Source: Lysobacter capsici (GTDB lineage Bacteria > Pseudomonadota > Gammaproteobacteria > Xanthomonadales > Xanthomonadaceae). Taken from it: DNA of 64,000 nucleotides. Of this stretch, positions 38,949 through 41,735 are shown one piece after another. The DNA is taken from NCBI RefSeq assembly GCF_014779555.2, contig NZ_CP094357.1, positions 3,162,001 through 3,226,000 of the forward strand, in the 5' to 3' direction. Below the pieces are notes generated by a model. That model did not search any database, had not been told where the DNA came from, and was given only the letters and a program-made list of their open reading frames with translations. A program made the position numbers and the translations under genes. The stretch's first letter is position 1. Each line of letters begins with the position of its first letter.

Positions 38949-41735
38949 ATGACCGCCACCCTGCCCCGTCAAACCCGACTCAGCGGCCTCGAACCGCTGC
39001 AGATCACCCCGCAAAGCAACTTCGTCAACGTCGGCGAGCGCACCAACGTCACCGGCAGCGCGCAGTTCAAGAAGCTGATCCTGGAAGGCCGCTATGACGA
39101 GGCCATCGTGGTCGCGCGCCAGCAGGTCGAGAACGGCGCGCAGGTGCTCGACGTCAACATGGACGAAGGCATGCTCGATTCCGAGCTGGCCATGGTCACC
39201 TACCTCAACCTGATCGCGGCCGAGCCCGATATCGCCCGCATCCCGGTGATGGTCGACAGCTCCAAGTGGTCGGTGATCGAGGCCGGGCTCAAGTGCCTGC
39301 AGGGCAAGGGCATCGTCAATTCGATCTCGATGAAGGAAGGCGAAGCCGAGTTCCTGCGCCAGGCCCGGCTGGTGCGACGCTACGGCGCGGCCGTGGTGGT
39401 CATGGCCTTCGACGAGGTCGGCCAGGCCGACAGCATCGACCGCAAGGTCGAGATCTGCTCGCGCGCCTACAAGCTGCTGACCGAGGAGATCGGTTTTCCG
39501 CCCGAGGACATCATCTTCGACCCCAACGTGTTCGCGATCGCCACCGGCATCGAGGAGCACAACAACTACGCGGTCGATTTCATCGAGGCCACGCGCGAGC
39601 TCAAGCGGCGCTTTCCGTACAGCCATATCTCCGGCGGCGTGTCGAACGTGTCGTTCTCGTTCCGCGGCAACGAGCTGGTGCGCCAGGCGATCCACGTGGT
39701 GTTCCTGTATCACGCGATCAAGGCCGGCATGGACATGGGCATCGTCAACGCCGGCGGCCTGCCGTTGTACGACGATCTGGATCCGGACCTGCGCGAACGG
39801 GTCGAGGACGTGGTGCTCAACCGCCGCAGCGACGGCACCGAACGCTTGCTCGACATCGCCGACCGCTTCAAGGGCAAGAAAGGCGAGAAAAAGGTCGAGG
39901 ACCTGCGCTGGCGCGACAAGCCGGTACGCGACCGCTTGAGCCATGCGCTGGTCCATGGCATCGACCAGTGGATCGAGGAGGACACCGAAGCGGCGCGCAT
40001 CGAATCGACCCGCCCGCTCGACGTGATCGAAGGTCCGCTGATGTCGGGCATGAACGTGGTAGGCGACCTGTTCGGCGCCGGCAAGATGTTCCTGCCGCAG
40101 GTGGTCAAGTCGGCGCGGGTGATGAAGAAGGCGGTCGCCTACCTGCTGCCGTACATCGAAGCCGAGAAGCTGCGCACCGGCGATGTCGGCAAGTCCAACG
40201 GCAAGATCGTCATGGCCACGGTCAAGGGCGACGTACACGACATCGGCAAGAACATCGTCGGCGTGGTCCTGGCCTGCAATAACTTCGACGTGATCGACCT
40301 GGGCGTGATGGTGCCGGCGCAGACGATCCTCGATCGCGCCCGCGCCGAAAACGCCGACCTGATCGGCCTGTCGGGCCTGATCACGCCGTCTCTGGAGGAA
40401 ATGAGCCACGTCGCCCGCGAGATGCAGCGCCAGGGCTTCACCATGCCGCTGCTGATCGGCGGCGCGACCACCTCGCGCGCGCACACCGCGCTGAAGATCG
40501 ACCCGCATTACAAATCGCCGACGATCTGGGTCAAGGACGCCTCGCGCGCGGTCGGCGTGGCCCAGTCGCTGATCTCGATCGACCTGCGCGAGCCCTTCGT
40601 CGCCGCCAACGCCTCCGACTACGCCGAGATCCGCGAACGCCACAAGAACCGCGGCGACGGCAAGCGCCTGGTGTCGCTGGAAAAGGCGCGCGGCCAGCGC
40701 TACGACGGCGGTTGGGACGAGTACGTTCCGCCCGCGCCGAAACAACCGGGCCTGCACGTGTTCGACGATTACCCGCTGGACGAACTGGTCGAGTACATCG
40801 ACTGGACGCCCTTCTTCAACACCTGGGAACTGGCCGGCCGTTACCCGGCGATCCTCAGCGACGAAATCGTCGGCAAGCAGGCCACCGAGCTGTACCGCGA
40901 TGCGCGCCGGATGCTCAAGCAGTTGGTCGAGGAGAAGTGGATCAAGGCCAAGGCGGTGTTCGGGCTGTGGCCCGCCAACTCGATCGGCGACGATGTCGAA
41001 GTCGACATGAACCTCCCTCTCCCGCTCGCGGGAGAGGACCGGGGTGAGGGCCAGCACGCAGCGACTGGCGTGTCCCCATCCCAGCCTTCCCCCGCAAGCG
41101 GGGGAAGGAGCGAAGCGGTGCGCCTGCACTTCCTCAGACAACAAGCCGACAAACCCGCCGACCGCCCCGACTTCTGCCTGGCCGACTTCATCGCGCCGAA
41201 GGAATCGGGCCGGCAGGACTGGATCGGCGGCTTCGCGGTCACCGCCGGCATCGGCATCGAGCCGCATGTCGCGCGCTTCGAGGCCGATCACGACGACTAC
41301 AACTCGATCATGGTCAAGGCGCTGGCCGACCGCCTGGCCGAAGCGCTGGCCGAGCGCCTGCATCAGCGCGTGCGCAAGGAGTTCTGGGGCTACGCCGACG
41401 ACGAAACCCTCAACAACGATGCGCTGATCGACGAAGGCTACCGCGGCATCCGCCCCGCGCCGGGCTATCCGGCCTGCCCCGAACACAGCGAGAAGACCAC
41501 GCTGTTCCAGATGCTCGACGCCACCCGCCACACCAGCCTGGAGCTGACCGAAAGCTTCGCGATGTACCCGGCCGCGGCGGTCTCGGGCTATTACTTCAGC
41601 CATCCGGGCAGCCAGTACTTCGTGGTCGGCCGGGTCAACAAGGAACAGGTCGAGGACTACGCCCGGCGCAAGGGCGTCAGCCTGATCCAGGCCGAACGGT
41701 GGCTGGCCTCGAATCTGGATTACGATCCCGAGTGA
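38949..41735 (+). CDS. metH: Methionine synthase, folate/cobalamin/activation subunit (split MetH C-terminal part)
   Basis: 928 residues. Pterin-binding domain begins at [14 protein letters not shown] (24-37); the cap and B12 domains follow with the cobalamin ligand H430 in GDVHDIGKN; the SAM-binding reactivation domain holds the [12 protein letters not shown] motif near 836-847. It methylates homocysteine bound to the partner subunit using methyl-tetrahydrofolate. Anomaly: residues about 689-723 are not MetH sequence but the translation of a family B palindromic repeat (41012-41115), sitting between GDDVEVDMN and AVRLHF near the start of the activation domain, in frame with no stop. Confidence 0.95.
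41012..41115. repeat. Family B repeat inserted in frame within metH
   Basis: Two hairpins: CCTCTCCCGCTCGCGGGAGAGG followed by ACCGGGGTGAGGGC, and CCTTCCCCCGCAAGCGGGGGAAGG, separated by a short spacer. The same parts occur between genes at 22279-22490, 28784-29006 and 63022-63061. The insert is about 105 bp, a multiple of three, adding about 35 residues to MetH. Confidence 0.88.

Follow-up and report, generated by a model that had tools for sequence, protein, structure and literature searches.

In Lysobacter capsici, a two-hairpin palindromic repeat lies in frame inside the gene for the second part of methionine synthase (MetH), and the segment that it contributes is probably a mobile palindrome to which a permissive loop of the enzyme gives room and which is presumably translated. 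The repeat is present in many copies in the genome, its insertion leaves the reading frame of metH open, relatives with a short loop exist, and metH evolves under purifying selection. In the 64,000-nucleotide stretch of DNA analysed here (the window) the loop holds this repeat, and several different repeats recur at the same loop in relatives.

MetH is split here over two adjoining genes, where the first part (37697-38818, forward strand, 373 aa) encodes the homocysteine S-methyltransferase domain and the second part (38949-41735, forward strand) encodes the pterin-binding, B12-binding and reactivation domains. The 928-aa ORF of the second part corresponds to MetH from the pterin domain on (NF007024, 1548 bits; PF02965 at residues 610-909). 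The insert lies in frame at 41012-41116 on the forward strand (edges approximate), where about 105 bp with two hairpins and zero stops in the frame encode residues about 689-723, and the loop reads GDDVEVD, then 37 residues, then VRLHFLRQQ. Hairpin 1 (CCTCTCCCGC-TC-GCGGGAGAGG, 41016-41037) is read in frame as PLPLAGE and hairpin 2 (CCTTCCCCCGC-AA-GCGGGGGAAGG, 41085-41108) as QPSPASGGR, with the ORF intact, which bears out the original prediction, made from the letters of this DNA, of a stop-free two-hairpin repeat within metH. That prediction had also put the gain at about 35 residues; the insertion stands, and the size comes down to a net gain of about 32 residues against the commonest loop of 10 aa, or of 27-28 residues against the two closest genus members with a short loop (14 and 15 aa, as opposed to 42 aa here). 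MetH had further been called an essential-type enzyme, a description that does not fit well, as the same genome (G000) also encodes a MetE-type synthase (PF01717, G000:1170288-1171256, E 1.5e-153), and MetH is therefore probably not strictly essential in this organism.

Outside the insert, comparison of metH with the nearest genome (G003) gives a dS of 0.14 and a dN of 0.007 (dN/dS about 0.05), which marks metH as a working gene under strong purifying selection. A frame-breaking sequencing error had been named as a finding that would undo the insertion, but the frame is intact and G003 carries the same insert, in frame and 98% identical. With its insert, metH is thus a conserved gene that has taken up a palindrome in frame and is still under selection, as described for Rickettsia palindromic elements. 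Within the insert, G000 and G003 differ at 1 of 108 bases, where 15.5 differences are expected at the synonymous rate, and the divergence of metH between these genomes is lowest around 40959-41318 of the window, where the two least divergent of 75 sliding windows overlap the insert. This low divergence, which was noticed after the fact and is below what a neutral passenger would be expected to show, could be due to a recombination tract or to homogenisation.

The repeat belongs to a family that is dispersed in its own genome. The hairpin-core pattern, which is self-complementary, has 175 exact matches in the 6.24-Mb genome, as opposed to 0 for the reversed control pattern, and the copies closest to the metH insert are found at 837756 and 4975971 (85-86% identity over 67-69 bp). 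Other copies that had been predicted in the window proved real when re-read in the sequence, with same-family hairpins at 22279-22490 and 28784-29006, none of which the coding-frame test placed in a gene, and a single-hairpin copy, read directly, at 63022-63061. In a sample of 82 cores, made up of the listed cores up to 2.0 Mb of the genome and those of the window, there are 24 two-hairpin pairs. Of the clusters sampled, about 48 by hand count, three lie inside genes, namely those for MetH, dihydrolipoyl dehydrogenase (Lpd) and the MurL epimerase, as counted by a coding-frame test that detects open, in-frame copies only and that copies breaking a gene escape. In the broad sense the metH element qualifies as a REP-like dispersed palindrome, as it is short, has 175 cores in the genome and is in part arranged in two-hairpin pairs. 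A GTAG or CGTC tag at the hairpin end is absent from the element as read directly at 41012-41116, and is present in the inserts of two other MetH loci (L061 and L179).

A search of related genomes for further copies inside genes had been proposed as a check; in the genome itself such copies lie in Lpd and MurL. In Lpd the repeat lies in frame in the linker after the lipoyl domain (L135 8417-8515, near 837.7 kb of the genome), and in MurL it is likewise in frame (L150 6781-6886, near 1556.3 kb), both in the same genome as the metH insert. The MurL copy is carried by 5 of 20 genus genomes (own included) and the Lpd copy by 5 of the 16 genus genomes that could be parsed (4 of 20 unparsed). G004, which is among the carriers of both, belongs to a different subclade of the metH tree. 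The frames in which the repeat is read are also restricted, in that arms of this type (B type) in MetH are read as PLPxAGEG or QPSPAxGGR only. The Arg-rich SRxRER frame is used by 0 of 12 non-redundant arms, a small count of script-found arms that are not independent within one element (4 rows were dropped as repeats of WIN, L010, L011 and L018), and by 0 of 4 arms in Lpd and MurL. In the first hairpin of 21 other two-hairpin copies, the Arg-rich frame is open in 10 and the other two frames in 11 and 12; the Arg-rich frame is thus about as open as the others, and therefore stops do not explain the avoidance of SRxRER.

Alignment with relatives, as had been suggested, has shown that MetH proteins lacking the segment exist. 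In a named set consisting of the best 80 of 568 confirmed matches, 62 loops are of 7-15 aa, 16 are of 19-57 aa and 2 were unparsed, while the 20 genus genomes (own included) have 13 long loops and 7 short ones, where one of the long loops (L098) was missed by the script and scored from other alignment and tree data. A search of the family Xanthomonadaceae gave a match in 288 of 297 genomes. By hand count among the matches listed, 68 places outside the genus align from query residue 1-3 and were taken as short loops, and 64 places are not in this short-loop group, of which 60, with a match falling short of the start of the short-loop query, were fetched. Among these 60 loops, 41 are of at least 16 aa and 18 fall below this length, with 1 unparsed; the counts of the named and family sets must not be summed because the sets overlap. 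The metH of genome G010 (L088) has a run of 12 N in part of its insert hairpin, and the length there is uncertain.

It had been held against the insertion in advance that related proteins without the repeat might carry an equally long, unrelated loop, and this is partly the case, as 10 of the 13 long genus loops carry something other than the window repeat. Within the genus, 6 of these 10 contain another recognisable repeat and 4 are unrecognisable. Loops that are long but lack a recognisable repeat number 7 among the 60 family loops fetched, 5 among the 80 named loci and 4 among the 20 genus genomes, and some lengthening of the loop may therefore be ordinary. A tree of 95 rows whose construction excluded the loop (5 of 100 rows, L030, L067, L080, L082 and L095, were unparsed and left out) calls, by parsimony, for at least 12 switches between long and short loops and for at least 15 changes among five loop states (B 5, A 3, R 2, other 7). 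Such counts cannot separate gain from loss, and weak support of the deep branches (in a first, quick tree, 37 of 91 inner branches had values under 80) can inflate them.

Depending on the lineage, the MetH loop contains repeats of the CTCTCCCGC family, GTAG-type REPs, GTGGGAGGGG palindromes or paired GGGAATC/GGGACC heptamer arrays. When the 41 long family loops are sorted by their DNA, 20 have both arms and 3 have one arm of GGGAATC/GGGACC-type arrays, 7 are of the CTCTCCCGC type of the window, 4 are of REP type and 7 are unrecognised. These types recur elsewhere in the genomes that carry them, with at least 58-84 matches of the GGGAATC type, at least 68-105 of the GGGACC type and at least 21-102 of the CTCTCCCGC type in each of 5 carrier genomes (both strands are counted, and these are not copy numbers). 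Counted in the same way, the GTGGGAGGGG type has at least 28, at least 71 and at least 17 matches in 3 of 5 genomes and 0 among the matches listed in the other 2, which carry a GTAGGAGCG type instead (145 and 56 forward matches, control 0). Because relatives bear other repeats in the same loop, it looks like a natural landing spot for repeat DNA, and, as far as sequence can tell, like a spot where repeat DNA becomes protein-coding.

In terms of structure, sequence alignment places the insert between DDIEI and SHHLRQQ in the Escherichia coli reactivation domain (1msk), which is also the best structural match of the AlphaFold model computed for residues 601-928 (alignment of 36 rows, moderate mean pLDDT of 74). 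In this model the insert lies between strands 82-86 and 123-127, with a pLDDT below 50 at fragment residues 91-119; because the model is moderate and other regions (fragment residues 219-243 and 289-294) are also below 50, the low pLDDT of the insert is weak proof of disorder. The suggestion that the insert is a tolerated loop is supported by the short-loop relatives, the low-confidence model between two strands and the purifying selection, while splicing at the RNA level, which had been offered as the alternative, is not supported.

Evidence points to the following course of events for a tolerated palindrome. The segment is a copy of a dispersed two-hairpin palindromic element, untagged and REP/MITE-like, which would be mobile and which entered metH in a frame that can be read through. 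Its survival is probably due to its position, a beta-turn in the reactivation domain from which flexible residues rich in Pro, Gly, Ala and Glu would loop out once translated and would do no harm. Older inserts seem to drop an arm or their likeness to the repeat, ultimately leading to ordinary-looking long loops. The site would be used repeatedly as one of very few insertion-tolerant places in MetH, perhaps together with a site preference of the mobilising machinery, and pure tolerance is strained because other flexible places of MetH are without such insertions. A wider reading can be put forward only tentatively, in which the MetH turn serves as a safe harbour throughout the family, where three to five repeat types (the number depends on how REP-like and heptamer types are split) have been captured independently and made coding, some of them decaying into lasting loops, by a real site preference beyond tolerance. 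If so, it would constitute a natural route from non-coding repeats to protein segments.

Site preference could also be the main factor. In this view the machinery mobilising several palindromic repeats would prefer the DNA or RNA of the turn as a target, and the loop would be a targeted hotspot that is often hit and not merely tolerated. Among 66 near-full-length MetH proteins (15 of 81 were dropped because the motif was not found or the locus was truncated), 17 have at least 4 and 15 have at least 8 extra residues in the loop relative to reference L036, whereas the longest insertion at any other internal site of the 872-residue reference is 1 residue. In addition, distinct repeats are inserted within a few codons of one point, and the recurrence of the window repeat in the MurL loop and the Lpd linker of genus genomes also speaks for targeting. 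Survivor bias alone could yield this pattern, however, and we consider a targeted hotspot rather unlikely.

Another explanation, to which we give little credence, is that a hairpin or G-quadruplex is kept by selection to tune metH translation, mRNA stability or transcription. In its favour, 35 of 60 long loops (L088 was skipped because of its N run) fold with a z of at most -2 when compared with dinucleotide shuffles, Xanthomonas-type genomes retain inverted arms in two sequences, GGGAATC and GGGACC, and the insert is unusually conserved between G000 and G003. However, all 35 of these loops are repeat-bearing, 10 of the 45 repeat-bearing long loops miss this z, as do all 15 long loops in which no repeat is recognisable, and the long loop is absent from most relatives examined. 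Covariation across 8 aligned Xanthomonas-type loops amounts to 2 of 33 pairs with double changes, as opposed to a shuffled mean of 1.6. Since folding tracks the repeats and there is no excess covariation, the hairpins appear to have come along with the repeats and not to be a kept RNA element. Selection for an RNA hairpin has been rejected on the negative covariation in these 8 loops and the ordinary folding of repeat-free long loops.

Ordinary variation in loop length, with no tie to mobile repeats, could account for the long loops that hold no recognisable repeat, but it is already disfavoured and highly improbable, as the window insert and the other tested insert types match dispersed multicopy repeats of their carriers. 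An assembly error, a pseudogene or excision of the insert at the mRNA level can practically be dismissed, since nothing was found in favour of any of them, and the intact frame with its dN/dS of about 0.05, the in-frame insert of G003 and the count of 0 Rfam matches at the family gathering score in the window speak against them. RNA-level removal was rejected, as no feature supports it.

Several known systems bear a likeness to the element described here. Rhizobium intergenic mosaic elements (RIME) are intergenic, about 105-110 bp in length and composed of two large palindromes, and the window element may resemble them in size and two-palindrome layout. Rickettsia palindromic elements, as a review describes them, occur in frame in many unrelated genes; they share with the metH insert the palindromic, in-frame character but are set apart as rickettsial elements of about 150 bp with a conserved peptide (PMC10969869). 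It had been claimed that such behaviour, known in Rickettsia, was new in a GC-rich proteobacterium, which is too strong, as the main text of a 2013 survey reports intragenic GTAG/CGTC REPs in Xanthomonas, Stenotrophomonas, Thauera and others (PMC3733652). According to the same text, more than half of the intragenic REPs are dimers or groups, encoding 20-30 residues, and in two Xanthomonas species recB holds different REPs at about the same place (PMC3733652). As described there, these REPs are like the metH insert in being dispersed palindromes inside genes, with recB as a same-site case, and they differ in that the window element is untagged and the recurrence in MetH spans several repeat types and many genera; the term "methionine synthase" is absent from the main text of the survey (PMC3733652). 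The GGGNATC heptamer repeats of Xanthomonas, which include convergent pairs, are described in the main text of another study as simple-sequence repeats or G-quadruplexes, lie at least partly in ORFs in 11% and 7% of cases in two species, and are the repeat type of the paired arms in Xanthomonas-type MetH loops; "methionine" is absent from that main text (PMC4692102).

Among the papers listed, as judged by title and start of abstract, none concerns insertions in MetH, and the repeated arrival of several repeat types at a single position of an enzyme, seen throughout a family, seems to be new. In-frame palindromes in genes have been reported mostly as scattered cases, whereas here one enzyme position is struck repeatedly and family-wide by different repeats. 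Because sites without an insert, recent inserts and seemingly decayed ones coexist, tolerance, targeting and selection can be tested against each other, and the MetH loop allows testing of how repeat DNA turns into new protein sequence.

Some further observations concern the surroundings of metH and the set of relatives. Directly upstream of metH, at 36724-37686 of the window, an ArsR-type DNA-binding domain is fused to a SAM-dependent methyltransferase domain, an arrangement that presumably resembles SAM-cycle regulators such as SahR. Just upstream of this regulator gene, at 36619-36708, there is an inverted repeat pair of the GGGAATC type, which is the type found inside MetH of other species. 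Two loci titled Bacillus subtilis and Rhizobium (MAG), L066 and L067, have a Xanthomonadaceae-like metH and are perhaps mislabelled or contaminated assemblies. At 7795-7830, the window contains part of a GTGGGAGGG-type palindrome, which resembles the insert in Luteimonas MetH.
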